A DNA stretch of 64,000 nucleotides from Ascidia mentula (Eukaryota > Chordata > Ascidiacea > Phlebobranchia > Ascidiidae), in contig OX387199.1 of NCBI GenBank assembly GCA_947561715.1, positions 12,653,001 to 12,717,000 of the forward strand, given 5' to 3'. Within the stretch, counting starts at the first letter, position 1, and the number at the start of each line of letters is the position of its first letter. A program made the translations under genes and the position numbers. The notes beneath the pieces are model-generated. The model saw only the letters and a list, made by a program, of their open reading frames with translations. It had not been told where the DNA came from and ran no database searches. Shown here piece by piece: positions 1 to 64,000 of the stretch.

Positions 1-2186
1 CTTTCAGCACTTGTCCATTTTGCAGTATATGACTTTTCGATAAAAAATATTTTTTTTCAGTACAAGCTTTATTATACAGTGGAAAACGCTGATACTCCAG
101 TACTGAGTTTGCGGTTGCACAACGTATGTAACTATGCGATTTCAGCACTTGTCCATTTTGCAGTATACGACTTTTCGGTAAAAAATATTTTATTTCAGTA
201 CAAGCTTTATTATACAGTGGAAAACGCTGGTACTCCAGCATTGCTTTTGCGGTTGCACAACGTATGTAACTATGCGATTTCAGCACTTGTCCATTTTGCA
301 GTATATGACTTTTCGACAAAAAATAGTTTTTTTTCTGTACAAGCTTTATTATACAGTGGAAAAGGCTGATACACCAGTATTGCGTTTGCGGTTGCACAAT
401 GTATGTAATTATGCGATTTCAGCACTTGTCCATTTTGCAGTATATGACTTTTCGATAAAAAATGTTTTTTTTCAGTACAAGCTTTATTATACAGTGGAAA
501 ACGCTGATACTCCAGTAATGAGTTTGCGGTTGCACAACGTATGTAACTATGCGATTTCAGCACTTGTCCATCTTGCAGTATATGACTTTTCGATAAAAAA
601 TATTTTTTTTCGTTACAAGTTTTATTATACAGTGGAAAACGCTGGTACTCCAGTATTACTTTTGCGGTTGCACAACGTATGTAACTATGCGATTTCAGCA
701 CTTGTCCATTTTGCAGTATATGACTTTTCGATAAAAAATAATTTTTTTTCAGTACAAGCTTTATTATACGGTGGAAAACGCTGATACTCCAGTATTGCGT
801 TTGCGGTTGCACAACGTATGTAACTATGCGCTTTCAGCACTTGTCCATTTTGCAGTACATGACTTTTCGATAAAAAATATTTGTTTTCAGTACAAGCTTT
901 ATTATGCAGTGGAAAACGCTGATACTCCAGTATTGCGTTTGCGGTTGCACAACGTATGTAACTATGCGCTTTCAGCACTTGTCCATTTTGCAGTATATGA
1001 CTTTTCGATAAAAAATATTTTTTTTCAGTACAAGCTTTATTATACAGTGGAAAACGCTGATACTCCAGTACTGAGTTTGCGGTTGCACAACGTATGTAAC
1101 CATGCGATTTCAGCACTTGTCCATTTTGCAGTATATGACTTTTCGATAAAAAATATTTTTTTTCAGTACAAGCTTTATTATACATTGGAAAACGCTGATA
1201 CTCCAGTACTGAGTTTGCGGTTGCACAACGTATGTAACCATGCGATTTCAGCACTTGTCCATTTTGCAGTATACGACTTTTCGGTAAAAAATATTTTTTT
1301 TCAGTACAAGCTTTATTATACAGTGGAAAACGCTGATACTCCAGTACTGAGTTTGCGGTTGCACAACGTATGTAACTGTGCGCTTTCAGCACTTGTCCAT
1401 TTTGCAGTATATGACTTTTCGATAAAAAATATTTTTTTTCAGTACAAGCTTTATTATACAGTGGAAAACGCTGATACTCCAGTACTGAGTTTGCGGTTGC
1501 ACAACGTATGTAACTATGCGCTTTCAGCACTTGTCCATTTTGCAGTATATGACTTTTCGATAAAAATTTTTTTTTTTCTGTACAAGCTTTATTATACCGT
1601 GGAAAACGCTGATACTCCAGTACTGAGTTTGCGGTTGCACAACGTATGTAACTATGCGATTTCAGCACTTGTCCATTTTGCAGTATATGAATTTTCGATA
1701 AAAAATATTTTTTGTCAGTACAAGCTTTATTATACAGTGGAAAACGCTGATACTCCAGTACTGAGTTTGCGGTTGCACAACGTATGTAACCATGCGATTT
1801 CACCACTTGTCCATTTTGAAGTATACGACTTTTCGGTAAAAAATATATTTTATTCAGTACAAGCTTTATTATACGGTGGAAAACGCTGATACTCCAGTAT
1901 TGCGTTTGCGGTTGCACAACGTATGTAACTATGCGCTTTCAGCACTTGTCCATTTTGCAGTATATGACTTTTCGATAAAAAATATTTTTTTTCAGTACAA
2001 GCTTTATTATACAGTGGAAAACGCTGATACTCCAGTACTGAGTTTGCGGTTGCACAACGTATGTAACTATGCGCTTTCAGCACTTGTCCATTTTGCAGTA
2101 TATGACTTTTCGATAAAAAATATTTTTTTTCAGTACAAGCTTTATTATACAGTGGAAAACGCTGATACTCCAGTACTGAGTTTGCG

Positions 2187-2196
2187 GTTGCACAAC
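2187..2196. other. Short dyad GTTGCACAAC in each monomer
   Basis: Seen: a 10-bp word with GTTG and CAAC arms around a central CA, present at this place in almost every monomer of the window (coordinates are those of the reference monomer). It matches 9 of 10 positions of the C/EBP-type bZIP consensus RTTGCGYAAY. This is the most symmetrical element I noticed in the unit. Whether any protein binds it is unknown; a 10-bp match of this kind can arise by chance. It is not a CENP-B box. Confidence 0.45.
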
Positions 2197-2202
2197 GTAT
2201 GT
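2197..2202 (+). other. Splice-donor-like GTATGT in each monomer
   Basis: Seen: GTATGT follows the dyad directly in most monomers (reference copy given). Together with the T8CAG block at 2261-2271 it would delimit a 75-nt intron-like stretch. GTATGT is the common yeast donor and an acceptable donor elsewhere. Some variants lose it: GTATTT in the monomers near 4547, 13527 and 24296, and GTATAT or GTACAT in the five landmark monomers near 16424, 22361, 27194, 31336 and 36305. No transcript is shown by the sequence, so use as a splice site is speculative. Confidence 0.3.
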
Positions 2203-2252
2203 AACTATGCGCTTTCAGCACTTGTCCATTTTGCAGTATATGACTTTTCGAT

Positions 2253-2271
2253 AAAAAATATTTTTTTTCAG
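2253..2271 (+). other. A6/T8 tract ending in CAG, splice-acceptor-like and indel-prone
   Basis: Seen: an A6 run, TA, then a T8 run and CAG, repeated about every 138 bp through the window (reference copy given). The T-run plus CAG is a textbook 3' splice acceptor in form. Phased A/T tracts are known to bend DNA and disfavour nucleosomes. Most of the length variation between monomers lies here: 139-bp forms near 315, 1848, 5710, 8620 and 14690, and a shortened T-run near 30030, 31000 and 35407. Slippage at the homopolymers is the likely cause. Confidence 0.5.
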
Positions 2272-2278
2272 TACAAGC

Positions 2279-2284
2279 TTTATT
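2279..2284 (-). other. AATAAA hexamer on the minus strand in each monomer
   Basis: Seen: TTTATT on the plus strand just after AAGCTT gives AATAAA on the minus strand, present in nearly every monomer (reference copy given). AATAAA is the canonical animal polyadenylation hexamer. If the minus strand were transcribed, signals would recur every 138 nt. The plus strand has no matching regular AATAAA. With this AT content a chance match is quite possible. Confidence 0.3.
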
Positions 2285-4664
2285 ATACAGTGGAAAACGC
2301 TGATACTCCAGTACTGAGTTTGCGGTTGCACAACGTATGTAACTATGCGATTTCAGCACTTGTCCATTTTGCAGTATACGACTTTTCGGTAAAAAATATT
2401 TTATTTCAGTACAAGCTTTATTATACAGTGGAAAACGCTGGTACTCCAGCATTGCTTTTGCGGTTGCACAACGTATGTAACTATGCGATTTCAGCACTTG
2501 TCCATTTTGCAGTATATGACTTTTCGACAAAAAATAGTTTTTTTTCTGTACAAGCTTTATTATACAGTGGAAAAGGCTGATACTCCAGTATTGCGTTTGC
2601 GGTTGCACAATGTATGTAACTATGCGATTTCAGCACTTGTCCATTTTGCAGTATATGACTTTTCGATAAAAAATGTTTTTTTTCAGTACAAGCTTTATTA
2701 TACAGTGGAAAACGCTGATACTCCAGTAATGAGTTTGCGGTTGCACAACGTATGTAACTATGCGATTTCAGCACTTGTCCATCTTGCAGTATATGACTTT
2801 TCGATAAAAAATATTTTTTTTCATTACAAGCTTTATTATACAGTGGAAAACGCTGGTACTCCAGTATTGCTTTTGCGGTTGCACAACGTATGTAACTATG
2901 CGATTTCAGCACTTGTCCATTTTGCAGTATATGACTTTTCGATAAAAAATATTTTTTTTCAGTACAAGCTTTATTATACAGTGGAAAACGCTGATACTCC
3001 AGTATTGCGTTTGCGGTTGCACAACGTATGTAACTATGCGATTTCAGCACTTGTCCATTTTGCAGTATATGACTTTTCGATAAAAAATATTTTTTTTCAG
3101 TACAAGCTTTATTATACAGTGGAAAACGCTGATACTCCAGTATTGCGTTTGCGGTTGCACAACGTATGTAACTATGCGATTTCAGCACTTGTCCATTTTG
3201 CAGTACATGACTTTTCGATAAAAAATATTTTTTTTCAGTACAAGCTTTATTATACAGTGGAAAACGCTGATACTCCAGTATTGCGTTTGCGGTTGCACAA
3301 CGTATGTAACTATGCGCTTTCAGCACTTGTCCATTTTGCAGTATATGACTTTTCGATAAAAAATATTTTTTTTCAGTACAAGCTTTATTATACAGTGGAA
3401 AACGCTGATACTCCAGTACTGAGTTTGCGGTTGCACAACGTATGTAACCATGCGATTTCAGCACTTGTCCATTTTGCAGTATATGACTTTTCGATAAAAA
3501 ATATTTTTTTTTAGTACAAGCTTTATTATACATTGGAAAACGCTGATACTCCAGTACTGAGTTTGCGGTTGCACAACGTATGTAACCATGCGATTTCAGC
3601 ACTTGTCCATTTTGCAGTATACGACTTTTCGGTAAAAAATATTTTTTTTCCGTACAAGCTTTATTATACAGTGGAAAACGCTGATACTCCAGTATTGCGT
3701 TTGCGGTTGCACAACGTATGTAACTATGCGCTTTCAGCACTTGTCCATTTTGCAGTATATGACTTTTCGATAAAAATAATTTTTTTTTAGTACAAGCTTT
3801 ATTATACAGTGGAAAACGCTGATACTCCAGTACTGAGTTTGCGGTTGCACAACGTATGTAACTATGCGCTTTCAGCACTTGTCCATTTTGCAGTATATGA
3901 CTTTTCGATAAAAAATATTTTTTTTCAGTACAAGCTTTATTATACAGTGGAAAACGCTGATACCCCAGTACTGAGTTTGCGGTTGCACAACGTATGTAAC
4001 CATGCGATTTCAGCACTTGTCCATTTTGCAGTACACGACTATTTGGTAAAAAATATTTTTTTTCAGTACAAGCTTTGTTATACAGTGGAAAACGCTGATA
4101 CTCCAGTTTTGCGTTTGCGGTTGCACAACGTATGTAACTATGCGCTTTCAGCACTTGTCCATTTTGCAGTATATGACTTTTCGATAAAAAATATTTTTTT
4201 TCAGTACAAGCTTTATTATACAGTGGAAAACGCTGATAGTCCAGTACTGAGTTTGCGGTTGCACAACGTATGTAACCATGCGATTTCAGCACTTGTCCAT
4301 TTTTCAGTATATGACTTTTCGATAAAAAATATTTTTTTTCAGTACAAGCTTTATTATACAGTGGAAAACGCTGATACTCCAGTAATGAGTTTGCGGTTGC
4401 ACAACGTATGTAACTATGCGATTTCAGCACTTGTCCATCTTGCAGTATATGACTTTTCGACAAAAAATATTTTTTTTCATTACAAGCTTTATTATACAGT
4501 GGAAAACGCTGGTACTCCAGTATTGCTTTTGCGGTTGCACAACGTATTTAACTATGCGATTTCAGCACTTGTCCATTTTGCAGTATATGACTTTTCGATA
4601 AAAAATATTTTTTTTCAGTACAAGCTTTATTATACAGTGGAAAACGCTGATACTCCAGTATTGC

Positions 4665-8782: not shown

Positions 8783-10994
8783 TTGAAAACGCTGATACCC
8801 CAGTACTGAGTTTGCGGTTGCACAACGTATGTAACCATGCGATTTCAGCACTTGTCCATTTTGCAGTATACGACTATTCGGTAAAAAATATGTTTTTTTC
8901 AGTACAAGCTTTGTTATACAGTGGAAAACGCTGATACTCCAGTTTTGCGTTTGCGGTTGCACAACGTATGTAACTATGCGCTTTCAGCACTTGTCCATTT
9001 TGCAGTATATGACTTTTCGATAAAAAATATTTTTTTTCAGTACAAGCTTTATTATACAGTGGAAAACGCTGATACTCCAGTACTGAGTTTGCGGTTGCAC
9101 AACGTATGTAACTATGCGATTTCAGCACTTGTCCATTTTGCAGTATACGACTTTTCGGTAAAAAATATTTTATTTCAGTACAAGCTTTATTATACAGTGG
9201 AAAACGCTGGTACTCCAGCATTGCTTTTGCGGTTGCACAACGTATGTAACTATGCGATTTCAGCACTTGTCCATTTTGCAGTATATGACTTTTCGACAAA
9301 AAATAGTTTTTTTTCTGTACAAGCTTTATTATACAGTGGAAAAGGCTGATACACCAGTATTGCGTTTGCGGTTGCACAATGTATGTAATTATGCGATTTC
9401 AGCACTTGTCCATTTTGCAGTATATGACTTTTCGATAAAAAATGTTTTTTTTCAGTACAAGCTTTATTATACAGTGGAAAACGCTGATACTCCAGTAATG
9501 AGTTTGCGGTTGCACAACGTATGTAACTATGCGATTTCAGCACTTGTCCATCTTGCAGTATATGACTTTTCGATAAAAAATATTTTTTTTCGTTACAAGT
9601 TTTATTATACAGTGGAAAACGCTGGTACTCCAGTATTACTTTTGCGGTTGCACAACGTATGTAACTATGCGATTTCAGCACTTGTCCATTTTGCAGTATA
9701 TGACTTTTCGATAAAAAATAATTTTTTTTCAGTACAAGCTTTATTATACGGTGGAAAACGCTGATACTCCAGTATTGCGTTTGCGGTTGCACAACGTATG
9801 TAACTATGCGCTTTCAGCACTTGTCCATTTTGCAGTACATGACTTTTCGATAAAAAATATTTGTTTTCAGTACAAGCTTTATTATGCAGTGGAAAACGCT
9901 GATACTCCAGTATTGCGTTTGCGGTTGCACAACGTATGTAACTATGCGCTTTCAGCACTTGTCCATTTTGCAGTATATGACTTTTCGATAAAAAATATTT
10001 TTTTTCAGTACAAGCTTTATTATACAGTGGAAAACGCTGATACTCCAGTACTGAGTTTGCGGTTGCACAACGTATGTAACCATGCGATTTCAGCACTTGT
10101 CCATTTTGCAGTATATGACTTTTCGATAAAAAATATTTTTTTTCAGTACAAGCTTTATTATACATTGGAAAACGCTGATACTCCAGTACTGAGTTTGCGG
10201 TTGCACAACGTATGTAACCATGCGATTTCAGCACTTGTCCATTTTGCAGTATACGACTTTTCGGTAAAAAATATTTTTTTTCAGTACAAGCTTTATTATA
10301 CAGTGGAAAACGCTGATACTCCAGTACTGAGTTTGCGGTTGCACAACGTATGTAACTGTGCGCTTTCAGCACTTGTCCATTTTGCAGTATATGACTTTTC
10401 GATAAAAAATATTTTTTTTCAGTACAAGCTTTATTATACAGTGGAAAACGCTGATACTCCAGTACTGAGTTTGCGGTTGCACAACGTATGTAACTATGCG
10501 CTTTCAGCACTTGTCCATTTTGCAGTATATGACTTTTCGATAAAAATTTTTTTTTTTCTGTACAAGCTTTATTATACCGTGGAAAACGCTGATACTCCAG
10601 TACTGAGTTTGCGGTTGCACAACGTATGTAACTATGCGATTTCAGCACTTGTCCATTTTGCAGTATATGAATTTTCGATAAAAAATATTTTTTGTCAGTA
10701 CAAGCTTTATTATACAGTGGAAAACGCTGATACTCCAGTACTGAGTTTGCGGTTGCACAACGTATGTAACCATGCGATTTCACCACTTGTCCATTTTGAA
10801 GTATACGACTTTTCGGTAAAAAATATATTTTATTCAGTACAAGCTTTATTATACGGTGGAAAACGCTGATACTCCAGTATTGCGTTTGCGGTTGCACAAC
10901 GTATGTAACTATGCGCTTTCAGCACTTGTCCATTTTGCAGTATATGACTTTTCGATAAAAAATATTTTTTTTCAGTACAAGCTTTATTATACAG
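8783..10994 (+). repeat. 16-monomer higher-order unit (2,212 bp), second copy
   Basis: Aligned to 6571-8782 at an offset of 2,212 bp. From 8981 it also lies within the second copy of the 8,980-bp repeat, matching 1-2014. It carries small differences from the first 16-mer that are shared with the window start, such as CGTTACAAG near 9592 (also near 611; CATTACAAG near 7379) and TATGCAGTGG near 9893 (also near 913). It is thus closer to 1-2014 than to its immediate tandem neighbour. This shows the order of events: the 16-mer existed before the 65-mer was copied. Confidence 0.85.
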
Positions 10995-13900
10995 TGGAAA
11001 ACGCTGATACTCCAGTACTGAGTTTGCGGTTGCACAACGTATGTAACTATGCGCTTTCAGCACTTGTCCATTTTGCAGTATATGACTTTTCGATAAAAAA
11101 TATTTTTTTTCAGTACAAGCTTTATTATACAGTGGAAAACGCTGATACTCCAGTACTGAGTTTGCGGTTGCACAACGTATGTAACTATGCGCTTTCAGCA
11201 CTTGTCCATTTTGCAGTATATGACTTTTCGATAAAAAATATTTTTTTTCAGTACAAGCTTTATTATACAGTGGAAAACGCTGATACTCCAGTACTGAGTT
11301 TGCGGTTGCACAACGTATGTAACTATGCGATTTCAGCACTTGTCCATTTTGCAGTATACGACTTTTCGGTAAAAAATATTTTATTTCAGTACAAGCTTTA
11401 TTATACAGTGGAAAACGCTGGTACTCCAGCATTGCTTTTGCGGTTGCACAACGTATGTAACTATGCGATTTCAGCACTTGTCCATTTTGCAGTATATGAC
11501 TTTTCGACAAAAAATAGTTTTTTTTCTGTACAAGCTTTATTATACAGTGGAAAAGGCTGATACTCCAGTATTGCGTTTGCGGTTGCACAATGTATGTAAC
11601 TATGCGATTTCAGCACTTGTCCATTTTGCAGTATATGACTTTTCGATAAAAAATGTTTTTTTTCAGTACAAGCTTTATTATACAGTGGAAAACGCTGATA
11701 CTCCAGTAATGAGTTTGCGGTTGCACAACGTATGTAACTATGCGATTTCAGCACTTGTCCATCTTGCAGTATATGACTTTTCGATAAAAAATATTTTTTT
11801 TCATTACAAGCTTTATTATACAGTGGAAAACGCTGGTACTCCAGTATTGCTTTTGCGGTTGCACAACGTATGTAACTATGCGATTTCAGCACTTGTCCAT
11901 TTTGCAGTATATGACTTTTCGATAAAAAATATTTTTTTTCAGTACAAGCTTTATTATACAGTGGAAAACGCTGATACTCCAGTATTGCGTTTGCGGTTGC
12001 ACAACGTATGTAACTATGCGATTTCAGCACTTGTCCATTTTGCAGTATATGACTTTTCGATAAAAAATATTTTTTTTCAGTACAAGCTTTATTATACAGT
12101 GGAAAACGCTGATACTCCAGTATTGCGTTTGCGGTTGCACAACGTATGTAACTATGCGATTTCAGCACTTGTCCATTTTGCAGTACATGACTTTTCGATA
12201 AAAAATATTTTTTTTCAGTACAAGCTTTATTATACAGTGGAAAACGCTGATACTCCAGTATTGCGTTTGCGGTTGCACAACGTATGTAACTATGCGCTTT
12301 CAGCACTTGTCCATTTTGCAGTATATGACTTTTCGATAAAAAATATTTTTTTTCAGTACAAGCTTTATTATACAGTGGAAAACGCTGATACTCCAGTACT
12401 GAGTTTGCGGTTGCACAACGTATGTAACCATGCGATTTCAGCACTTGTCCATTTTGCAGTATATGACTTTTCGATAAAAAATATTTTTTTTTAGTACAAG
12501 CTTTATTATACATTGGAAAACGCTGATACTCCAGTACTGAGTTTGCGGTTGCACAACGTATGTAACCATGCGATTTCAGCACTTGTCCATTTTGCAGTAT
12601 ACGACTTTTCGGTAAAAAATATTTTTTTTCCGTACAAGCTTTATTATACAGTGGAAAACGCTGATACTCCAGTATTGCGTTTGCGGTTGCACAACGTATG
12701 TAACTATGCGCTTTCAGCACTTGTCCATTTTGCAGTATATGACTTTTCGATAAAAATAATTTTTTTTTAGTACAAGCTTTATTATACAGTGGAAAACGCT
12801 GATACTCCAGTACTGAGTTTGCGGTTGCACAACGTATGTAACTATGCGCTTTCAGCACTTGTCCATTTTGCAGTATATGACTTTTCGATAAAAAATATTT
12901 TTTTTCAGTACAAGCTTTATTATACAGTGGAAAACGCTGATACCCCAGTACTGAGTTTGCGGTTGCACAACGTATGTAACCATGCGATTTCAGCACTTGT
13001 CCATTTTGCAGTACACGACTATTTGGTAAAAAATATTTTTTTTCAGTACAAGCTTTGTTATACAGTGGAAAACGCTGATACTCCAGTTTTGCGTTTGCGG
13101 TTGCACAACGTATGTAACTATGCGCTTTCAGCACTTGTCCATTTTGCAGTATATGACTTTTCGATAAAAAATATTTTTTTTCAGTACAAGCTTTATTATA
13201 CAGTGGAAAACGCTGATACTCCAGTACTGAGTTTGCGGTTGCACAACGTATGTAACCATGCGATTTCAGCACTTGTCCATTTTTCAGTATATGACTTTTC
13301 GATAAAAAATATTTTTTTTCAGTACAAGCTTTATTATACAGTGGAAAACGCTGATACTCCAGTAATGAGTTTGCGGTTGCACAACGTATGTAACTATGCG
13401 ATTTCAGCACTTGTCCATCTTGCAGTATATGACTTTTCGACAAAAAATATTTTTTTTCATTACAAGCTTTATTATACAGTGGAAAACGCTGGTACTCCAG
13501 TATTGCTTTTGCGGTTGCACAACGTATTTAACTATGCGATTTCAGCACTTGTCCATTTTGCAGTATATGACTTTTCGATAAAAAATATTTTTTTTCAGTA
13601 CAAGCTTTATTATACAGTGGAAAACGCTGATACTCCAGTATTGCCTTTGCGGTTGCACAACGTATGTAACTATGCGATTTCAGCACTTGTCCATTTTGCA
13701 GTATATGACTTTTCGATAAAAAATATTTTTTTTCAGTACAAGCTTTATTATACAGTGGAAAACGCTGATACTCCAGTATTGCGTTTGCGGTTGCACAACG
13801 TATGTAACTATTCGCTTTCAGCACTTGTCCATTTTGCAGTATATGACTTTTCGATAAAAAATATTTTTTTTCAGTACAAGCTTTATTATACAGTGGACAA

Positions 13901-50000: not shown

Positions 50001-50353
50001 GCACTTGTCCATTTTGCAGTATATAACTTTTCGATAAAAAATATTTTTTTTCAGTACAAGCTTTATTATACAGTGGAAAACGCTGATACTCCAGTATTGC
50101 GTTTGCGGTTGCACAACGTATGTAACTATGCGCTTTCAGCACTTGTCCATTTTGCAGTATATGACTTTTCGATAAAAAATATTTTTTTTCAGTACAAGCT
50201 TTATTATACAGTGGAAAACGCTGATCCTCCAGTACTGAGTTTGCGGTTGCACAACGTATGTAACCATGCGATTTCAGCACTTGTCCATTTTGCAGTATAT
50301 GACTTTTCGATAAAAAATATTTTTTTTCAGTACAAGCTTTATTTACAGTGGAA
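47042..50353 (+). repeat. Twelve 276-bp dimers (two-monomer higher-order repeat)
   Basis: Two monomer types alternate strictly: a TTGCGT type with CACAACG and TAACTATGCG, then an ACTGAG type with CACAAAG and TAACCATGCG. Twelve pairs fit 3,312 bp. Dimers carry marks (GACTCTTCG, CCATCTTGCAG, GTATATAACTT), and these marks repeat with a 1,656-bp spacing (6 dimers), for example 48361 and 50017. CACAAAG, the defining change, occurs only here and in 51.2-51.8 kb. No 139-bp monomer occurs in the block, so frames of over 1,270 codons stay open on both strands. Confidence 0.92.
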
Positions 50354-52140
50354 AACGCTGATACTCCAGTACTGAGTTTGCGGTTGCACAACGTATGTAA
50401 CCATGCGATTTCAGCACTTGTCCATTTTGCAGTATATGACTTTTCGATAAAAAATATTTTTTTTCAGTACAAGCTTTATTATACATTGAAAAACGCTGAT
50501 ACTCCAGTACTGAGTTTGCGGTTGCACAACGTATGTAACCATGCGATTTCAGCACTTGTCCATTTTGCAGTATACGACTTTTCGGTAAAAAATATTTTTT
50601 TTCAGTACAAGCTTTATTATACAGTGGAAAACGCTGATACTCCAGTTTTGCGTTTGCGGTTGCACAACGTATGTAACTATGCGCTTTCAGCACTTGTCCA
50701 TTTTGCAGTATATGACTTTTCGATAAAAAATACTTTTTTTCAGTACAAGCTTTATTATACAGTGGAAAACGATGATATTCCAGTACTGAGTTTGCGGTTG
50801 CACAACGTATGTAACTATGCGCTTTCAGCACTTGTCCATTTTGCAGTATATGACTTTTCGATAAAAAATATTTTTTTTCAGTACAAGCTTTATTATACAG
50901 TGGAAAACGCCGATACCCCAGTACTGAGTTTGCGGTTGCACAACGTATGTAACCATGCGATTTCAGCACTTGTCCATTTTGCAGTACACGACTATTCGGT
51001 AAAAAATATTTTTTTTCAGTACAAGCTTTGTTATACAGTGGAAAACGCTGATACTCCAGTTTTGCGTTTGCGGTTGCACAACGTATGTAACTATGCGCTT
51101 TCAGCACTTGTCCATTTTGCAGTATATGACTTTTCGATAAAAAATATTTTTTTTCAGTACAAGCTTTATTATACAGTGGAAAACGCTGATACTCCAGTAC
51201 TGAGTTTGCGGTTGCACAAAGTATGTAACCATGCGATTTCAGCACTTGTCCATTTAGCAGTATATGACTTTTCGATAAAAAATATTTTTTTTCAGTACAA
51301 GCTTTATTATACAGTGGAAAACGCTGATACTCCAGTATTGCGTTTGCGGTTGCACAACGTATGTAACTATGCGATTTCAGCACTTGTCCATTTTGCAGTA
51401 TATGACTTTTCGATAAAAAATATTTTTTTTCAGTACAAGCTTTATTATACAGTGGAAAACGCTGATACTCCAGTACTGAGTTTGCGGTTGCACAAAGTAT
51501 GTAACCATGCGATTTCAGCACTTGTCCATCTTGCAGTATATGACTTTTCGATAAAAAATATTTTTTTTCAGTACAAGCTTTATTATACAGTGGAAAACGC
51601 TGATACTCCAGTATTGCGTTTGCGGTTGCACAACGTATGTAACTATGCGATTTCAGCACTTGTCCATTTTGCAGTATATGACTTTTCGATAAAAAATATT
51701 TTTTTTCAGTACAAGCTTTATTATACAGTGGAAAACGCTGATACTCCAGTACTGAGTTTGCGGTTGCACAAAGTATGTAACCATGCGATTTCAGCACTTG
51801 TCCATTTTGCAGTATATAACTTTTCGATAAAAAATATTTTTTTTCAGTACAAGCTTTATTATACAGTGGAAAACGCTGATACTCCAGTATTGCGTTTGCG
51901 GTTGCACAACGTATGTAACTATGCGCTTTCAGCACTTGTCCATTTTGCAGTATATGACTTTTCGATAAAAAATATTTTTTTTCAGTACAAGCTTTATTAT
52001 ACAGTGGAAAACGCTGATCCTCCAGTACTGAGTTTGCGGTTGCACAACGTATGTAACCATGCGATTTCAGCACTTGTCCATTTTGCAGTATATGACTATT
52101 CGATAAAAAATATTTTTTTTCAGTACAAGCTTTATTTACA
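49390..52140 (+). repeat. 13-monomer higher-order unit (1,793 bp), first copy and lead-in
   Basis: Positions 50348-52140 form one unit, and 49390-50347 is the tail of a preceding partial unit matching 51183-52140. The offset is 1,793 bp, i.e. 13 monomers minus one base. Both units carry the shortened junction TTTATTTACAG (near 50339 and 52132), GATCCTCC (50223 and 52017), CATTTAGCAG (49459 and 51252) and GTATATAACTT. The single-base loss at the junction is a rare mark that dates the duplication after that change. Confidence 0.85.
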
Positions 52141-52943
52141 GTGGAAAACGCTGATACTCCAGTACTGAGTTTGCGGTTGCACAACGTATGTAACCATGCG
52201 ATTTCAGCACTTGTCCATTTTGCAGTATATGACTTTTCGATAAAAAATATTTTTTTTCAGTACAAGCTTTATTATACATTGAAAAACGCTGATACTCCAG
52301 TACTGAGTTTGCGGTTGCACAACGTATGTAACCATGCGATTTCAGCACTTGTCCATTTTGCAGTATACGACTTTTCGGTAAAAAATATTTTTTTTCAGTA
52401 CAAGCTTTATTATACAGTGGAAAACGCTGATACTCCAGTTTTGCGTTTGCGGTTGCACAACGTATGTAACTATGCGCTTTCAGCACTTGTCCATTTTGCA
52501 GTATATGACTTTTCGATAAAAAATACTTTTTTTCAGTACAAGCTTTATTATACAGTGGAAAACGATGATATTCCAGTACTGAGTTTGCGGTTGCACAACG
52601 TATGTAACTATGCGCTTTCAGCACTTGTCCATTTTGCAGTATATGACTTTTCGATAAAAAATATTTTTTTTCAGTACAAGCTTTATTATACAGTGGAAAA
52701 CGCCGATACCCCAGTACTGAGTTTGCGGTTGCACAACGTATGTAACCATGCGATTTCAGCACTTGTCCATTTTGCAGTACACGACTATTCGGTAAAAAAT
52801 ATTTTTTTTCAGTACAAGCTTTGTTATACAGTGGAAAACGCTGATACTCCAGTTTTGCGTTTGCGGTTGCACAACGTATGTAACTATGCGCTTTCAGCAC
52901 TTGTCCATTTTGCAGTATATGACTTTTCGATAAAAAATATTTT
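52141..52943 (+). repeat. 13-monomer higher-order unit, truncated second copy
   Basis: Matches 50348-51150 at 1,793 bp, sharing AAATACTTTTTTTC (50732, 52525), GATGATATTCC (50770, 52563) and GCCGATACC (50909, 52702). It breaks off near 52948 at a monomer with private CAGGACAAGC, after which the CACAAAG dimers of the first copy are absent. The truncation leaves six of the 13 monomers. Confidence 0.82.
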
Positions 52944-54953
52944 TTTTCAGGACAAGCTTTATTATGCAGTGGAAAACGCTGATACTCCAGTACTGAGTTT
53001 GCGGTTGCACAACGTATGTAACTATGCGATTTCAGCACTTGTCCATTTTGCAGTATACGACTTTTCGATAAAAAACATTTTTTTTCAGTACAAGCTTTAT
53101 TATACATTGGAAAACGCTGATACTCCAGTTTTGCGTTTGCGGTTGCACAACGTATGTAACTATGCGCTTTCAGCACTTGTCCATTTTGCAGTATATGACT
53201 TTTCGATAAAAATTTTTTTTTTCAGTACAAGCTTTATTATACAGTGGAAAACGCTGATACTCCAGTACTGAGTTTGCGGTTGCACAACGTATGTAACCAT
53301 GCGATTTCAGCACTTGTCCATTTTGCAGTATATGACTTTTCGATAAAAAATATTTTTTTTCAGTACAAGCTTTATTATACAGTGGAAAACGCTGATACTC
53401 CAGTACTGAGTTTGCGGTTGCACAACGTATGTAACCATGCGATTTCAGCACTTGTCCATTTTGCAGTATACGACTATTCGGTAAAAAATATTTTTTTTCA
53501 GTACAAGCTTTATTATACAGTGGAAAACGCTGATACTCCAGTTTTGCGTTTGCGGTTGCACAACGTATGTAACTATGCGCTTTCAGCACTTGTCCATTTT
53601 GCAGTATATGACTTTTCGATAAAAAATATTTTTTTTCATTACAAGCTTTATTATACAGTGGAAAACGCTGATTCTCTAGTACTGAGTTTGCGGTTGCACA
53701 ACGTATGTAACCATGCGATTTCAGCACTTGTCCATTTTTCAGTATATGACTTTTCGATAAAAAATATTTTTTTTCAGTACAAGCTTTATTATACAGTGGA
53801 AAACGCTGATACTCCAGTAATGAGTTTGCGGTTGCACAACGTATGTAACTATGCGATTTCAGCATTTGTCCATCTTGCAGTATATGACTTTTCGATAAAA
53901 AATATTTTTTTTCATTACAAGCTTTATTATACAGTGGAAAACGCTGGTACTCCAGTATTGCTTTTGCGGTTGCACAACGTATTTAACTATGCGATTTCAG
54001 CACTTGTCCATTTTGCAGTATATGACTTTTCGATAAAAAATATTTTTTTTCAGTACAAGCTTTATTATACAGTGGAAAACGCTGATACTCCAGTATTGCC
54101 TTTGCGGTTGCACAACGTATGTAACTATGCGATTTCAGCACTTGTCCATTTTGCAGTATATGACTTTTCGATAAAAAATATTTTTTTTCAGTACAAGCTT
54201 TATTATACAGTGGAAAACGATGATACTCCAGTATTGCGTTTGCGGTTGCACAACGTATGTAACTATGCGCTTTCAGCACTTGTCCATTTTGCAGTATATG
54301 ACTTTTCGATAAAAAATATTTTTTTTCAGTACAAGCTTTATTATACAGTGGACAACGCTGATACTCCAGTATTGCGTTTGCGGTTGCACAACGTATGTAA
54401 CTATGCGCTTGCAGCACTTGTCCATTTTGCAGTATATGACTTTTCGATAAAAAATATTTTTTTTCAGTACAAGCTTTATTATACAGTGGAAAACGCTGAT
54501 ACTCCAGTACTGAGTTTGCGGTTGCACAACGTATGTAACTATGCGCTTTCAGCACTTGTCCATTTTGCAGTATATGACTTTTCGATAAAAAATATTTTTT
54601 TTCAGTACAAGCTTTATTATACAGTGGAAAACGCTGATACCCCAGTACTGAGTTTGCGGTTGCACAACGTATGTAACCATGCGATTTCAGCACTTGTCCA
54701 TTTTGCAGTATACGACTATTCGGTAAAAAATATTTTTTTTCAGTACAAGCTTTGTTATACAGTGGAAAACGCTGATACTCCAGTACTGAGTTTGCGGTTG
54801 CACAACGTATGTAACTATGCGATTTCAGCACTTGTCCATTTTGCAGTATATGAATTTTCGATAAAAAATATTTTTTTTCAGTACAAGCTTTATTATACAG
54901 TGGAAAACGCTGATACTCCAGTACTGAGTTTGCGGTTGCACAACGTATGTAAC
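52944..54953 (+). repeat. Mixed higher-order segment before the 4,554-bp repeats
   Basis: Fourteen to fifteen monomers that resemble several families. The order at 53670-54640 follows that of 23976-24950, with GATTCTCTAG near 53671, CAGCATTTGTCC near 53862 and GCGCTTGCAGC near 54411 as extra marks. The last is otherwise typical of the 40.7-46.6-kb units. Positions up to about 54640 also match the region before 59330 at an offset of 4,692 bp (34 monomers). A monomer near 54840 with GTATATGAATTT is lacking in the later copy. Confidence 0.65.
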
Positions 54954-57900
54954 CATGCGATTTCAGCACTTGTCCATTTTGAAGTATTCGACTTTTCGGT
55001 AAAAAATATATTTTATTCAGTACAAGCTTTATTATACAGTGGAAAACGCTGATACTCCAGTACTGAGTTTGCGGTTGCACAACGTATGTAACCATGCGAT
55101 TTCTGCACTTGTCCATTTTGCAGTACACGACTTTTCGGTAAAAAATATATTTTATTCAGTACAAGCTTTATTATACAGTGGAAAACGCTGATACCCCAGT
55201 ACTGAGTTTGCGGTTGCACAACGTATGTAACCATGCGATTTCAGCACTTGTCCATTTTGCAGTACACGACTATTCGGTAAAAAATATTTTTTTTCAGTAC
55301 AAGCTTTGTTATACAGTGGAAAATGCTGATACTCCAGTTTTGCGTTTGCGGTTGCACAACGTATGTAACTATGCGCTTTCAGCACTTGTCCATTTTGCAG
55401 TATATGACTTTTCGATAAAAAATATTTTTTTTCAGTACAAGCTTTATTATGCAGTGGAAAACGCTGATACTCCAGTACTGAGTTTGCGGTTGCACAACGT
55501 ATGTAACTATGCGATTTCAGCACTTGTCCATTTTGCAGTATACGACTTCGATAAAAAACATTTTTTTTCAGTACAAGCTTTATTATACATTGGAAAACGC
55601 TGATACTCCAGTTTTGCGTTTGCGGTTGCACAACGTATGTAACTATGCGCTTTCAGCACTTGTCCATTTTGCAGTATATGACTTTTCGATAAAAATTTTT
55701 TTTTTCAGTACAAGCTTTATTATACAGTGGAAAACGCTGATACTCCAGTACTGAGTTTGCGGTTGCACAACGTATGTAACCATGCGATTTCAGCACTTGT
55801 CCATTTTGCAGTATATGACTTTTCGATAAAAAATATTTTTTTTCAGTACAAGCTTTATTATACAGTGGAAAACGCTGATACTCCAGTACTGAGTTTGCGG
55901 TTGCACAACGTATGTAACCATGCGATTTCAGCACTTGTCCATTTTGCAGTATACGACTATTCGGTAAAAAATATTTTTTTTCAGTACAAGCTTTATTATA
56001 CAGTGGAAAAGGCTGATATTCCAGTTTTGCGTTTGCGGTTGCACAACGTATGTAACTATGCGCTTTCAGCACTTGTCCATTTTGCAGTATATGACTTTTC
56101 GATAAAAAATATTTTTTTTCAGTACAAGCTTTATTATACAGTGGAAAACGCTGATACTCCAGTAATGAGTTTGCGGTTGCACAACGTATGTAACTATGCG
56201 ATGTCAGCACTTGTCCATCTTGCAGTATATGACTTTTCGATAAAAAATATTTTTTTTCATTACAAGCTTTATTATACAGTGGAAAACGCTGGTACTCCAG
56301 TATTGCTTTTGCGGTTGCACAACGTATTTAACTATGCGATTTCAGCACTTGTCCATTTTGCAGTATATGACTTTTCGATAAAAAATATTTTTTTTCAGTA
56401 CAAGCTTTATTATACAGTGGAAAACGCTGATACTCCAGTATTGCGTTTGCGGTTGCACAACGTATGTAACTATGCGATTTCAGCACTTGTCCATTTTGCA
56501 GTATATGACTTTTCGATAAAAAATATTTTTTTTCAGTACAAGCTTTATTATACAGTGGACAACGCTGATACTCCAGTATTGCGTTTGCGGTTGCACAACG
56601 TATGTAACTATGCGCTTTCAGCACTTGTCCATTTTGCAGTATATGACTTTTCGATAAAAAATATTTTTTTTCAGTACAAGCTTTATTATACAGTGGAAAA
56701 CGCTGATACCCCAGTACTGAGTTTGCGGTTGCACAACGTATGTAACCATGCGATTTCAGCACTTGTCCATTTTGCAGTATACGACTATTCGGTAAAAAAT
56801 ATTTTTTTTCAGTACAAGCTTTGTTATACAGTGGAAAACGCTGATACTCCAGTTTTGCGTTTGCGGTTGCACAACGTATGTAACTATGCGCTTTCAGCAC
56901 TTGTCCATTTTGCAGTATATGACTTTTCGATAAAAAATATTTTTTTTCAGAACAAGCTTTATTATACAGTGGAAAACGCTGATACTCCAGTACTGAGTTT
57001 GCGGTTGCACAACGTATGTAACTATGCGATTTCAGCACTTGTCCATTTTGCAGTATACGACTTTTCGGTAAAAAATATTTTATTTCAGTACAAGCTTTAT
57101 TATACAGTGGAAAACGCTGGTACTCCAGCATTGCTTTTGCGGTTGCACAACGTATGTAACTATGCGATTTCAGCACTTGTCCATTTTGCAGTATATGACT
57201 TTTCGATAAAAAAAAGTTTTTTTTCTGTACAAGCTTTATTATACAGTGGAAAAGGCTGATACTCCAGTATTGCGTTTGCGGTTGCACAATGTATGTAACT
57301 ATGCGATTTCAGCACTTGTCCATTTTGCAGTATATGACTTTTCGATAAAAAATGTTTTTTTTCAGTACAAGCTTTATTATACAGTGGAAAACGCTGATAC
57401 TCCAGTAATGAGTTTGCGGTTGCACAACGTATGTAACTATGCGATTTCAGCACTTGTCCATCTTGCAGTATATGACTTTTCGATAAAAAATATTTTTTTT
57501 CATTACAAGCTTTATTATACAGTGGAAAACGCTGGTACTCCAGTATTGCTTTTGCGGTTGCACAACGTATGTAACTATGCGATTTCAGCACTTGTCCATT
57601 TTGCAGTATATGACTTTTCGATAAAAAATATTTTTTTTCAGTACAAGCTTTATTACACAGTGGAAAACGCTGATACTCCAGTATTGCGTTTGCGGTTGCA
57701 CAACGTATGTAACTATGCGATTTCAGCACTTGTCCATTTTGCAGTATATGACTTTTCGATAAAAAATATTTTTTTTCAGTACAAGCTTTATTATACAGTG
57801 GAAAACGCTGATACTCCAGTATTGCGTTTGCGGTTGCACAACGTATGTAACTATGCGCTTTCAGCACTTGTCCATTTTGCAGTACATGACTTTTCAATAA

Positions 57901-59507
57901 AAAATATTTTTTTTCAGTACAAGCTTTATTATACAGTGGAAAACGCTGATACTCCAGTATTGCGTTTGCGGTTGCACAACGTATGTAACTATGCGCTTTC
58001 AGCACTTGTCCATTTTGCAGTATATGACTTTTCGATAAAAAATATTTTTTTTCAGTACAAGCTTTATTATACAGTGGAAAACGCTGATACCCCAGTACTG
58101 AGTTTGCGGTTGCACAACGTATGTAACCATGCGATTTCAGCACTTGTCCATTTTGCAGTACACGATTATTCGGTAAAAAATATTTTTTTTCAGTACAAGC
58201 TTTGTTATACAGTGGAAAACGCTGATACTCCAGTTTTGCGTTTGCGGTTGCACAACGTATGTAACTATGCGCTTTCAGCACTTGTCCATTTTGCAGTATA
58301 TGACTTTTCGATAAAAAATATTTTTTTTCAGTACAAGCTTTATTATACAGTGGAAAACGCTGATACTCCAGTACTGAGTTTGCGGTTGCACAACGTATGT
58401 AACTATGTGATTTCAGCACTTGTCCATTTTGCAGTATACGACTTTTCGATAAAAAATATTTTTTTTCAGTACAAGCTTTATTATTCAGTGGAAAACGCTG
58501 ATACTCCAGTTTTGCGTTTGCGGTTGCACAACGTATGTAAATATGCGCTTTCAGCACTTGTCCATTTTGCAGTATATGACTTTTCGATAAAAAATATTTT
58601 TTTTCAGTACAAGCTTTATTATACAGTGGAAAACGCTGATACTCCAGTACTGAGTTTGCGGTTGCACAACGTATGTAACCATGCGATTTCAGCACTTGTC
58701 CATTTTTCAGTATATGACTTTTCGATAAAAAATATTTTTTTTCAGTACAAGCTTTATTATACAGTAGAAAACGCTGATACTCCAGTAATGAGTTTGCGGT
58801 TGCACAACGTATGTAACTATGCGATGTCAGCACTTGTCCATCTTGCAGTATATGACTTTTCGATAAAAAATATTTTTTTTCATTACAAGCTTTATTATAC
58901 AGTGGAAAACGCTGGTACTCCAGTATTGCTTTTGCGGTTGCACAACGTATTTAACTATGCGATTTCAGCACTTGTCCATTTTGCAGTATATGACTTTTCG
59001 ATAAAAAATATTTTTTTTCAGTACAAGCTTTATTATACAGTGGAAAACGCTGATACTCCAGTATTGCGTTTGCGGTTGCACAACGTATGTAACTATGCGA
59101 TTTCAGCACTTGTCCATTTTGCAGTATATGACTTTTCGATAAAAAATATTTTTTTTCAGTACAAGCTTTATTATACAGTGGACAACGCTGATACTCCAGT
59201 ATTGCGTTTGCGGTTGCACAACGTATGTAACTATGCGCTTTCAGCACTTGTCCATTTTGCAGTATATGACTTTTCGATAAAAAATATTTTTTTTCAGTAC
59301 AAGCTTTATTATACAGTGGAAAACGCTGATACCCCAGTACTGAGTTTGCGGTTGCACAACGTATGTAACCATGCGATTTCAGCACTTGTCCATTTTGCAG
59401 TATACGACTATTCGGTAAAAAATATTTTTTTTCAGTACAAGCTTTGTTATACAGTGGAAAACGCTGATACTCCAGTACTGAGTTTGCGGTTGCACAACGT
59501 ATGTAAC
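54954..59507 (+). repeat. 33-monomer higher-order unit (4,554 bp), first copy
   Basis: Repeats at 59508 onward with an offset of exactly 33 x 138 bp. Shared rare marks include GAAGTATTCGAC (54977, 59531), GATTTCTGCAC (55098, 59652), the 2-bp-shortened GACTTCGAT (55544, 60098), GATGTCAGCAC (56209, 60763), CAGAACAAGC (56948, 61502) and ATAAAAAAAAG (57204, 61758). Open frames of 510 codons at 55727-57259 and 60281-61813 translate identically, so the copies are very young. A net length change of zero is unusual among these periods. Confidence 0.9.
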
Positions 59508-62500
59508 CATGCGATTTCAGCACTTGTCCATTTTGAAGTATTCGACTTTTCGGTAAAAAATATATTTTATTCAGTACAAGCTTTATTATACAGTGGAAAA
59601 CGCTGATACTCCAGTACTGAGTTTGCGGTTGCACAACGTATGTAACCATGCGATTTCTGCACTTGTCCATTTTGCAGTACACGACTTTTCGGTAAAAAAT
59701 ATATTTTATTCAGTACAAGCTTTATTATACAGTGGAAAACGCTGATACCCCAGTACTGAGTTTGCGGTTGCACAACGTATGTAACCATGCGATTTCAGCA
59801 CTTGTCCATTTTGCAGTACACGACTATTCGGTAAAAAATATTTTTTTTCAGTACAAGCTTTGTTATACAGTGGAAAATGCTGATACTCCAGTTTTGCGTT
59901 TGCGGTTGCACAACGTATGTAACTATGCGCTTTCAGCACTTGTCCATTTTGCAGTATATGACTTTTCGATAAAAAATATTTTTTTTCAGTACAAGCTTTA
60001 TTATGCAGTGGAAAACGCTGATACTCCAGTACTGAGTTTGCGGTTGCACAACGTATGTAACTATGCGATTTCAGCACTTGTCCATTTTGCAGTATACGAC
60101 TTCGATAAAAAACATTTTTTTTCAGTACAAGCTTTATTATACATTGGAAAACGCTGATACTCCAGTTTTGCGTTTGCGGTTGCACAACGTATGTAACTAT
60201 GCGCTTTCAGCACTTGTCCATTTTGCAGTATATGACTTTTCGATAAAAATTTTTTTTTTCAGTACAAGCTTTATTATACAGTGGAAAACGCTGATACTCC
60301 AGTACTGAGTTTGCGGTTGCACAACGTATGTAACCATGCGATTTCAGCACTTGTCCATTTTGCAGTATATGACTTTTCGATAAAAAATATTTTTTTTCAG
60401 TACAAGCTTTATTATACAGTGGAAAACGCTGATACTCCAGTACTGAGTTTGCGGTTGCACAACGTATGTAACCATGCGATTTCAGCACTTGTCCATTTTG
60501 CAGTATACGACTATTCGGTAAAAAATATTTTTTTTCAGTACAAGCTTTATTATACAGTGGAAAAGGCTGATATTCCAGTTTTGCGTTTGCGGTTGCACAA
60601 CGTATGTAACTATGCGCTTTCAGCACTTGTCCATTTTGCAGTATATGACTTTTCGATAAAAAATATTTTTTTTCAGTACAAGCTTTATTATACAGTGGAA
60701 AACGCTGATACTCCAGTAATGAGTTTGCGGTTGCACAACGTATGTAACTATGCGATGTCAGCACTTGTCCATCTTGCAGTATATGACTTTTCGATAAAAA
60801 ATATTTTTTTTCATTACAAGCTTTATTATACAGTGGAAAACGCTGGTACTCCAGTATTGCTTTTGCGGTTGCACAACGTATTTAACTATGCGATTTCAGC
60901 ACTTGTCCATTTTGCAGTATATGACTTTTCGATAAAAAATATTTTTTTTCAGTACAAGCTTTATTATACAGTGGAAAACGCTGATACTCCAGTATTGCGT
61001 TTGCGGTTGCACAACGTATGTAACTATGCGATTTCAGCACTTGTCCATTTTGCAGTATATGACTTTTCGATAAAAAATATTTTTTTTCAGTACAAGCTTT
61101 ATTATACAGTGGACAACGCTGATACTCCAGTATTGCGTTTGCGGTTGCACAACGTATGTAACTATGCGCTTTCAGCACTTGTCCATTTTGCAGTATATGA
61201 CTTTTCGATAAAAAATATTTTTTTTCAGTACAAGCTTTATTATACAGTGGAAAACGCTGATACCCCAGTACTGAGTTTGCGGTTGCACAACGTATGTAAC
61301 CATGCGATTTCAGCACTTGTCCATTTTGCAGTATACGACTATTCGGTAAAAAATATTTTTTTTCAGTACAAGCTTTGTTATACAGTGGAAAACGCTGATA
61401 CTCCAGTTTTGCGTTTGCGGTTGCACAACGTATGTAACTATGCGCTTTCAGCACTTGTCCATTTTGCAGTATATGACTTTTCGATAAAAAATATTTTTTT
61501 TCAGAACAAGCTTTATTATACAGTGGAAAACGCTGATACTCCAGTACTGAGTTTGCGGTTGCACAACGTATGTAACTATGCGATTTCAGCACTTGTCCAT
61601 TTTGCAGTATACGACTTTTCGGTAAAAAATATTTTATTTCAGTACAAGCTTTATTATACAGTGGAAAACGCTGGTACTCCAGCATTGCTTTTGCGGTTGC
61701 ACAACGTATGTAACTATGCGATTTCAGCACTTGTCCATTTTGCAGTATATGACTTTTCGATAAAAAAAAGTTTTTTTTCTGTACAAGCTTTATTATACAG
61801 TGGAAAAGGCTGATACTCCAGTATTGCGTTTGCGGTTGCACAATGTATGTAACTATGCGATTTCAGCACTTGTCCATTTTGCAGTATATGACTTTTCGAT
61901 AAAAAATGTTTTTTTTCAGTACAAGCTTTATTATACAGTGGAAAACGCTGATACTCCAGTAATGAGTTTGCGGTTGCACAACGTATGTAACTATGCGATT
62001 TCAGCACTTGTCCATCTTGCAGTATATGACTTTTCGATAAAAAATATTTTTTTTCATTACAAGCTTTATTATACAGTGGAAAACGCTGGTACTCCAGTAT
62101 TGCTTTTGCGGTTGCACAACGTATGTAACTATGCGATTTCAGCACTTGTCCATTTTGCAGTATATGACTTTTCGATAAAAAATATTTTTTTTCAGTACAA
62201 GCTTTATTACACAGTGGAAAACGCTGATACTCCAGTATTGCGTTTGCGGTTGCACAACGTATGTAACTATGCGATTTCAGCACTTGTCCATTTTGCAGTA
62301 TATGACTTTTCGATAAAAAATATTTTTTTTCAGTACAAGCTTTATTATACAGTGGAAAACGCTGATACTCCAGTATTGCGTTTGCGGTTGCACAACGTAT
62401 GTAACTATGCGCTTTCAGCACTTGTCCATTTTGCAGTACATGACTTTTCAATAAAAAATATTTTTTTTCAGTACAAGCTTTATTATACAGTGGAAAACGC

Positions 62501-64000
62501 TGATACTCCAGTTTTGCGTTTGCGGTTGCACAACGTATGTAACTATGCGCTTTCAGCACTTGTCCATTTTGCAGTATATGACTTTTCGATAAAAAATATT
62601 TTTTTTCAGTACAAGCTTTATTATACAGTGGAAAACGCTGATACTCCAGTACTGAGTTTGCGGTTGCACAACGTATGTAACTATGTGATTTCAGCACTTG
62701 TCCATTTTGCAGTATACGACTTTTCGATAAAAAATATTTTTTTTCAGTACAAGCTTTATTATTCAGTGGAAAACGCTGATACTCCAGTTTTGCGTTTGCG
62801 GTTGCACAACGTATGTAAATATGCGCTTTCAGCACTTGTCCATTTTGCAGTATATGACTTTTCGATAAAAAATATTTTTTTTCAGTACAAGCTTTATTAT
62901 ACAGTGGAAAACGCTGATACTCCAGTACTGAGTTTGCGGTTGCACAACGTATGTAACCATGCGATTTCAGCACTTGTCCATTTTTCAGTATATGACTTTT
63001 CGATAAAAAATATTTTTTTTCAGTACAAGCTTTATTATACAGTAGAAAACGCTGATACTCCAGTAATGAGTTTGCGGTTGCACAACGTATGTAACTATGC
63101 GATGTCAGCACTTGTCCATCTTGCAGTATATGACTTTTCGATAAAAAATATTTTTTTTCATTACAAGCTTTATTATACAGTGGAAAACGCTGGTACTCCA
63201 GTATTGCTTTTGCGGTTGCACAACGTATTTAACTATGCGATTTCAGCACTTGTCCATTTTGCAGTATATGACTTTTCGATAAAAAATATTTTTTTTCAGT
63301 ACAAGCTTTATTATACAGTGGAAAACGCTGATACTCCAGTATTGCGTTTGCGGTTGCACAACGTATGTAACTATGCGATTTCAGCACTTGTCCATTTTGC
63401 AGTATATGACTTTTCGATAAAAAATATTTTTTTTCAGTACAAGCTTTATTATACAGTGGACAACGCTGATACTCCAGTATTGCGTTTGCGGTTGCACAAC
63501 GTATGTAACTATGCGCTTTCAGCACTTGTCCATTTTGCAGTATATGACTTTTCGATAAAAAATATTTTTTTTCAGTACAAGCTTTATTATACAGTGGAAA
63601 ACGCTGATACCCCAGTACTGAGTTTGCGGTTGCACAACGTATGTAACCATGCGATTTCAGCACTTGTCCATTTTGCAGTATACGACTATTCGGTAAAAAA
63701 TATTTTTTTTCAGTACAAGCTTTGTTATACAGTGGAAAACGCTGATACTCCAGTTTTGCGTTTGCGGTTGCACAACGTATGTAACTATGCGCTTTCAGCA
63801 CTTGTCCATTTTGCAGTATATGACTTTTCGATAAAAAATATTTTTTTTCAGAACAAGCTTTATTATACAGTGGAAAACGCTGATACTCCAGTACTGAGTT
63901 TGCGGTTGCACAACGTATGTAACTATGCGATTTCAGCACTTGTCCATTTTGCAGTATACGACTTTTCGGTAAAAAATATTTTATTTCAGTACACGCTTTA
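59508..64000 (+). repeat. 33-monomer higher-order unit, second copy with two monomers lost
   Basis: Follows the first copy to about 62500. The offset then falls from 4,554 to 4,278 bp, exactly two monomers: the TACCCC / CACGATTATTCGG monomer and its neighbour (58090-58220) are missing. The remainder to 63939 matches 58330 onward and then the 56.7-kb order. The window ends inside a monomer with a private CACGCTTTA near 63992, and the array continues beyond it. Confidence 0.88.

Follow-up and report, generated by a model that had tools for sequence, protein, structure and literature searches.

A 138-bp satellite with irregular higher-order repeats as putative centromere DNA of the ascidian Ascidia mentula

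The window analysed here, a stretch of 64,000 nucleotides from chromosome 3 of the ascidian Ascidia mentula (C52:12653001-12717000), most likely is part of the core of that chromosome's array of the main centromere-type satellite, a putative regional centromere shaped by in-register unequal homologous exchange (probability roughly 0.8). Judged from its occurrence on all nine chromosomes, the 138-bp satellite very probably is the centromere DNA of A. mentula and was built by repeated uneven copying. The array is ordinary in kind; as far as the literature search goes, it is the first handle found on the centromeres of this species, and the ascidians are a chordate group for which the literature searched contained no published centromere monomer. 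The titles and abstracts listed from the open-licence literature yielded no report of this satellite, which may exist in print elsewhere, and the main text of the A. mentula genome note has no word beginning with centromer, repeat, satellite, or telomer.

Monomers and blocks in the window

According to TRF, positions 2-64000 of the window form a single tandem array (one row) with a period of 138, 463.5 copies, and 95% matches. Monomer segmentation yielded 463 complete monomers, close to the approximately 462 counted in the earlier note, with 157 distinct sequences of which 72 occur once. Most monomers are 138 bp long (406), and the others measure 139 bp (47), 137 bp (8), or 136 bp (2). Their mean identity is 97.1% to the consensus, 95.4% in pairwise comparison, and 95.1% between neighbours, and the self-identity of the window at a shift of 138 bases is 0.872 (median 0.272 across shifts 1-29,999). 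Two monomer types, distinguished at consensus positions 102 and 105, account for 379 of the 463 monomers (202 and 177; typed by four variable positions). Neither segmentation nor TRF found a foreign insertion, inversion, or gap in the 64 kb, so that the earlier note's description of an uninterrupted array is true for the window; it does not extend to the array beyond, where a 6.05-kb insertion lies about 22 kb downstream. With its many head-to-tail copies, on a scale of kb to Mb, the 138-bp repeat is satellite DNA. No Rfam families were found in window positions 1-20000, and a 1.4-kb piece of the window had no match in phage records. A special hairpin was considered and rejected, because the single-strand fold of one monomer was no better than that of shuffled sequences (z -0.74); the inverted repeats within the monomer are imperfect only.

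Since 138 equals 3 x 46 and both strands of the consensus contain a frame without stops, the array might be viewed as a coding repeat with a 46-codon unit, open in one frame per strand and giving frames of up to 1,292 residues. The window contains 141 ORFs of at least 60 amino acids. This explanation deserves almost no credence: 57 of the 463 monomers are 136, 137, or 139 bp long and break the frame, and of 5,000 shuffled consensus sequences, 784 had an open frame on one strand or more and 47 on both, which makes such openness uncommon, not extraordinary.

The monomers of the satellite are organised in blocks recurring at many spacings (Table 1). In 200 shuffles of the monomer order, the highest exact-match fraction at lags 1-299 had a 99th percentile of 0.054. 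Over the whole window, this value is exceeded at lags 65 (0.138), 16 (0.092), 43 (0.074), 33 (0.070), 213 (0.064), 66 (0.063), 108 (0.062), and 78 (0.060), and lags 35 (0.047), 11 (0.046), 2 (0.033), and 13 (0.031) stay below it. The latter four all show a local run, 7-13 monomers long, with no more than a single difference in any monomer; the longest runs in 50 shuffles of monomer order comprised 3 or 4 monomers. The periods listed in the earlier note (2, 11, 13, 16, 33, 35, 43, 65, and 66) are thus all real, with 65, 16, 43, 33, and 66 standing above the whole-window null and 35, 11, 2, and 13 being borne out by their local runs rather than by the whole-window fraction. Lags 78, 108, and 213, and local runs at lags 12, 143, 60, and 31, were missing from that list. 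Some lags are sums of others (35 + 43 = 78, 43 + 65 = 108, and 65 + 78 = 143), which points to nested copies of the same blocks and not to independent units. The longest run comprises 33 monomers at lag 65 (null maximum 4), and 44 runs of six or more monomers, under the same limit of one difference each, span 390 of the 463 monomers. Exact self repeats of 600 bp or more number 30; the longest measures 4,238 bp at an offset of 8,980, and block offsets are approximately whole numbers of monomers. Three exact copies of one 977-bp block lie at 15711, 21649, and 26482. The blocks, exact over up to 4,238 bp, are far more alike than adjacent monomers (95.1%), and the array is a higher-order-repeat satellite in which no single unit dominates the window.

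Table 1. Array and block features within the window (window positions) and matches of the rare-variant marker on the nine chromosome contigs (contig positions in Mb).
Feature	Coordinates	Strand	Evidence or count
Head-to-tail 138-bp satellite array, uninterrupted, 463 complete monomers plus ends	1..64000	+	TRF, segmentation
4,238-bp longest exact repeat, copy 1, 65-monomer register, offset 8,980 bp	1..4238	+	exact self match; 33-monomer run at lag 65
65-monomer-register block, copy 2	8981..13218	+	exact self match
2,192-bp exact block, copy 1, 43-monomer register, offset 5,938 bp	15121..17312	+	exact self match
43-monomer-register block, copy 2	21059..23250	+	977 bp (21649-22625) recur at 26482-27458, 35-monomer register
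Part of the 43-monomer-register block, third exact copy (977 bp); 43 + 35 = 78	26482..27458	+	exact self match
1,829-bp exact block, copy 1, 66-monomer register, offset 9,111 bp	27460..29288	+	exact self match
66-monomer-register block, copy 2	36571..38399	+	exact self match
Exact block of 929 bp with its copy, 11-monomer register	37648..40097	+	exact self match
Copies in 16-monomer register (8- and 10-monomer runs; 718- and 710-bp exact blocks)	40606..46670	+	run analysis, exact self match
Local 2-monomer alternation, 7-monomer run at lag 2	47098..48063	+	run analysis
Copies in 13-monomer register (999- and 852-bp exact blocks)	49306..52950	+	exact self match
3,066-bp exact block, copy 1, 33-monomer register, offset 4,554 bp	54893..57958	+	exact self match
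33-monomer-register block, copy 2	59447..62512	+	exact self match
Marker matches, C1	12.49-13.31 Mb		16
Marker matches, C2	17.91 Mb		1
Marker matches, C52	11.94-12.58 Mb		8
Marker matches, C67	11.95-12.36 Mb		4
Marker matches, C69	11.91-12.29 Mb		15
Marker matches, C70	7.89-8.39 Mb		7
Marker matches, C71	11.26-11.72 Mb		8
Marker matches, C72 (chromosome 8)	10.46 Mb		1
Marker matches, C73	6.71-7.11 Mb		16

At 4,238 bp, the window's longest exact repeat falls short of the usual HiFi read length. This argues against the layered pattern being an assembly artefact, in which reads of a more regular or differently ordered array would have been collapsed or mis-joined, as do the average difference of about 5% between adjacent monomers and the monomer phase of the block offsets. 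Such an artefact, which we regard as very improbable, would be favoured by the near-identity of the 138-bp units and by the difference between the assembly analysed (195.84 Mb, 79 contigs) and the figures in passages of the A. mentula genome note (197.0 Mb, 95 scaffolds); the same passages give a 74-fold HiFi coverage, a contig N50 of 11.9 Mb, and a QV of 64.9, in line with a genuine higher-order structure. The long-range order of the array derives from one HiFi/Hi-C assembly.

Extent and layering on chromosome 3

The chromosome 3 array is 0.91-0.99 Mb long and is situated near the middle of the chromosome, with edges bracketed by samples and a variant match. On the left, samples at 11.60, 11.70, and 11.80 Mb contained no satellite, the sample at 11.90 Mb was satellite over 9,992 of 10,000 bases, and a variant match is at 11,894,067. 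The right-hand end of the satellite lies near 12,800,111, beside a BEL/Pao element. The loci sampled from 11.90 to 12.79 Mb, which cover about one quarter of the array, consist of satellite except for two interruptions at 12,738,840-12,744,892 and 12,791,973-12,798,725 (about 6 and 6.8 kb), the first of which is the aforementioned insertion downstream of the window. The flanks contain gene pieces, namely a match to the TMEM39 family near 11.708 Mb and, near 13.204 Mb, a Runt domain (Pfam); two other flank frames of the six frames scanned, and the frame in the first insertion, had no Pfam match.

Identity to the window consensus is 88.4% for monomers at 11.90 Mb and 95.7-97.4% for those at 15 loci between 12.00 and 12.787 Mb (16 loci compared, with L004, L007, and the interrupted L028, L033, and L034 excluded). 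A pattern of 82 bases from the edge consensus, searched with at most two mismatches, has 563 genome sites. Among the 100 matches listed, C1 accounts for 88, which without exception fall at 12.464-12.490 and 13.312-13.317 Mb and hence at both array ends; four are on C52 at 11.903-11.930 Mb, and the others are on C2 (6), C67 (1), and C70 (1). The layering is clear on both sides of the C1 array and at the left edge of the C52 array, and it is graded on the right of C52, where the array is mildly shifted (94.2-94.8% local identity, 95.7-95.9% to the consensus). A 51-base part of the edge pattern (at most two mismatches) occurs 26 times within the window and, more densely, to its right, where each locus in L029-L033 has 16-24 occurrences; edge-like variants are therefore not restricted to the edges. 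The divergence of the edge variants suggests that they may be older than those of the core. The longest exact match with the window measures 1,379 bp at 70-84 kb upstream, 687 bp at 323 kb, 495 bp at 453 kb, and 270 bp at 653 kb, and no exact match of at least 150 bp exists at 753 kb upstream. This sharing is not monotonic with distance, as the match at 51 kb upstream (818 bp) is shorter than that at 70-84 kb. In the 10 kb adjoining the window downstream, exact matches with the window reach at most 876 bp.

Abundant single-family satellites in other animals often are pericentromeric. The 138-bp satellite might likewise form pericentromeric heterochromatin beside a smaller and different centromere core, such as a retroelement island or a distinct part of the array, and not itself bear the kinetochore. 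The position of the array and its copy number would also suit a pericentromeric satellite, and the right part of the array, which has two interruptions and ends at the BEL/Pao element, would fit as well. However, the sampled quarter of the array between 11.90 and 12.79 Mb is satellite but for these interruptions, and the divergent edges around a homogeneous core resemble the layers that passages of PMC2729386 describe for active human centromeres. We consider a purely pericentromeric role unlikely and retain the reading as a putative regional centromere. The genome contains a match to the CENP-C cupin domain (35 bits, cut-off 29) that covers 52 of 85 model positions; four of 14 prokaryote controls also matched, all of them below the cut-off.

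Distribution across the genome

A 24-mer searched with at most three mismatches has 40,344 sites in the genome (24,041 on the plus and 16,303 on the minus strand), and its reversed control pattern has none. About 40,000 copies of 138 bp each amount to about 5.6 Mb, or about 2.8% of the genome. Contigs C1, C2, and C52 are treated as chromosomes 1, 2, and 3, and C67 and C69-C73 as chromosomes 4-9. On the mitochondrial contig C79, COX1 shows its expected conserved glycines under table 13, the ascidian code, out of five codes compared. A rare-variant marker, chosen for its low count, has 76 matches, all listed, which are located in one place on each of the nine chromosomes and on no other contig (Table 1); a longer form of this variant is absent from the chromosome 3 sample. 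The marker midpoints lie at 0.38-0.58 of the chromosome length on eight of the nine chromosomes and at 0.90 on chromosome 2. The marker thus indicates one main locus per chromosome on all nine, but chromosomes 2 and 8 each have a single match, and chromosome 2 carries, besides the satellite at 17.4-18.0 Mb, a second piece that starts sharply at about 15.171 Mb. Micro-probes contained satellite in one of 13 cases on C73 and one of seven on C71, both within the marker clusters, and in none of 12 on C72, where the sole marker match falls between two probes. The earlier note had proposed a centromere or heterochromatin core and had named a predominance of non-centromeric sites as evidence to the contrary; the confinement of the marker to one place on each chromosome supports the proposal.

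The arrays on other chromosomes change strand. They share monomers yet carry chromosome-biased blocks, as seen among the matches listed in contig order. One variant is biased to C2, with three matches on C1 and at least 97 on C2 among the matches listed (207 in all), and another to C67, with seven on C1, none on C2, six on C52, and at least 87 on C67 among those listed (457 in all). A further abundant variant has at least 72 matches on C67. Exact copies of the commonest window monomer number 46 on C1, zero on C2-C51, and at least 54 on C52 among the matches listed (389 in all). We see an even chance that all nine putative centromeres of A. mentula are based on this one satellite and evolve as in humans, with expanding young cores, partly chromosome-specific higher-order repeats, strand switches, and fossil edge layers shared between non-homologous chromosomes. 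If true, homologous exchange under a regional kinetochore would generally lead to layered centromere growth. The layered variants allow tests, outside primates and plants, of whether expansion of a young core and outward ageing are a general rule, and of whether this rule of regional centromeres needs a CENP-B-like protein.

Possible mechanism and known systems

Misaligned near-identical monomers may lead to unequal sister-chromatid exchange or break-induced replication, and such in-register exchange would copy blocks of a few to about 66 monomers. Block copying would expand young variants in the core and push older variants outward, and its repetition would leave irregular higher-order repeats. 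The arrays would then serve as regional centromeres where CENP-A chromatin and the CENP-C kinetochore assemble, presumably marked epigenetically and not via a CENP-B-box-like motif. Block duplication and deletion were simulated in arrays of 2,500 monomers, and three exchange sizes were compared. With blocks of up to 70 monomers (24 runs, three mutation rates), the simulated arrays had many lags, longest runs of 17-62 monomers, and a coverage of 0.57-0.95. Blocks of up to eight monomers (eight runs) gave longest runs of 8-19, and in single-monomer exchange (six runs) the top lag always was lag 1 (0.50-0.58), with longest runs of 15-24. Taking identity and distinct fraction together, the observed values (0.954 and 0.339) were approached more closely by single-monomer exchange (medians 0.959 and 0.395); block-exchange arrays of matching identity contained too small a share of distinct monomers (median 0.099). 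No simulation setting reproduced all measured statistics, and the array probably arose through a mixture of small and large exchanges. The nested in-phase block copies and the block-exchange simulation, albeit no setting fitted every statistic, support the suggestion in the earlier note that many unequal exchanges of differing register took place.

The centromeric satellite CEN178/CEN180 of Arabidopsis, for which CENH3 data exist, has irregular, locally duplicated higher-order repeats with no dominant period. The 138-bp array is alike in its irregular local higher-order repeats and differs in sequence, kingdom, and monomer length. Human and primate alpha satellite has, in the passages of PMC2729386 that describe it, a homogeneous core and older flanking layers, which are partly symmetrical and partly shared between non-homologous chromosomes. 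The likeness consists of one monomer family on the chromosomes, a core flanked, where sampled, by divergent variants, and higher-order repeats (same passages, PMC2729386). In contrast to alpha satellite, the window has no dominant higher-order repeat, its monomer measures 138 instead of 171 bp, and the monomer consensus contains no full match to the CENP-B box with up to two substitutions. As the hosts are unrelated, this likeness is one of organisation and not of descent. Alpha satellite is of primate origin and carries a CENP-B box in a subset of its monomers. An identity of the array with alpha satellite was rejected on account of the monomer length (not about 171 bp), the ascidian genome, and the missing CENP-B box in the consensus.

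Botryllus schlosseri, also an ascidian, has a long tandem region at 16-17 Mb of sequence Bs3 that was termed likely centromeric repeats; the passages concerned describe it for one chromosome-scale sequence and give no monomer (PMC12448946). For the tunicate Oikopleura dioica, passages of PMC8008620 state that no high-copy tandem repeats marking centromeres were found and that the telomeres are TTAGGG. In A. mentula, by contrast, a high-copy repeat is plain, and the telomere repeat is the same in both: C52 terminates in TTAGGG repeats.

Strand, repeat structure and placement of the satellite on other chromosomes

On chromosome 3, every satellite copy seen lies on the plus strand; the arrays of chromosome 1 and of chromosomes C70 and C73 switch strand (Table). 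On chromosome 4, the matches listed for one variant follow a spacing pattern, judged by eye, with a period of ~3.2-3.9 kb (23-28 monomers), which is a further higher-order repeat, unlike those of the window. The monomers also vary in length. Among the 99 chromosome 1 matches listed, the start-to-start spacing is 117 bp seven times, and this is a monomer form shorter by 21 bp, occurring at irregular intervals. In 600 bases of C70 inspected by eye (minus strand), copies of one main monomer type appear to take turns with copies of the other, giving a 2-monomer unit.

Chromosome 2 has a sharp junction between non-satellite sequence (91 bases seen) and near-core satellite monomers, which are 95.7-98.0% identical to the consensus. 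The main array of chromosome 2, at 17.4-18.0 Mb, is a long way from this junction, and the satellite found here is either an additional block or sequence misplaced in the assembly.

Coordinates of satellite features and array interruptions (C52, chromosome 3; L numbers, sampled loci)
Feature	Location	Description
Chromosome 1 array	C1, about 12.46-13.32 Mb	mainly minus-plus-minus, among matches listed
C73 array	6.71-7.11 Mb	minus-plus-minus, among matches listed
C70 array	7.83-8.39 Mb	plus-minus-plus-minus, among matches listed
Apparent monomer alternation	L068 (C70:7852001-7852600)	
117-bp spacings	C1:12604952-12618512	
Chromosome 4 spacing pattern	C67:11644849-11692525	
Chromosome 2 junction	L067 (C2, about 15170892)	
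Divergent left edge	L042 (C52:11900001-11910000)	
Insertion	L028:1840-7892 (C52:12738840-12744892)	6.05 kb, ~22 kb downstream of window
Second interruption	L033:4973 to L034:1725 (C52:12791973-12798725)	

Edges and interruptions of the chromosome 3 array

At the left edge of the array, the divergent monomers are 98.9% identical at a lag of 66 monomers, with just 6 comparable pairs in 10 kb, which suggests that the edge itself was block-duplicated. The insertion downstream of the window contains an open frame of 769 residues that had no match in a Pfam scan, and direct repeats of at least 60 bp, sought in the same insertion, were absent except for the satellite itself. The second interruption also carries a long open frame, on the minus strand. 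At ~12.800 Mb, a BEL/Pao element adjoins the final satellite monomers.

Open frames of the 138-bp unit

The unit corresponds to 46 codons and has one stop-free frame per strand (window 1-64000); ORF callers therefore give frames of up to 1,292 aa. When the consensus was shuffled, openness on both strands arose in 47 of 5,000 trials.
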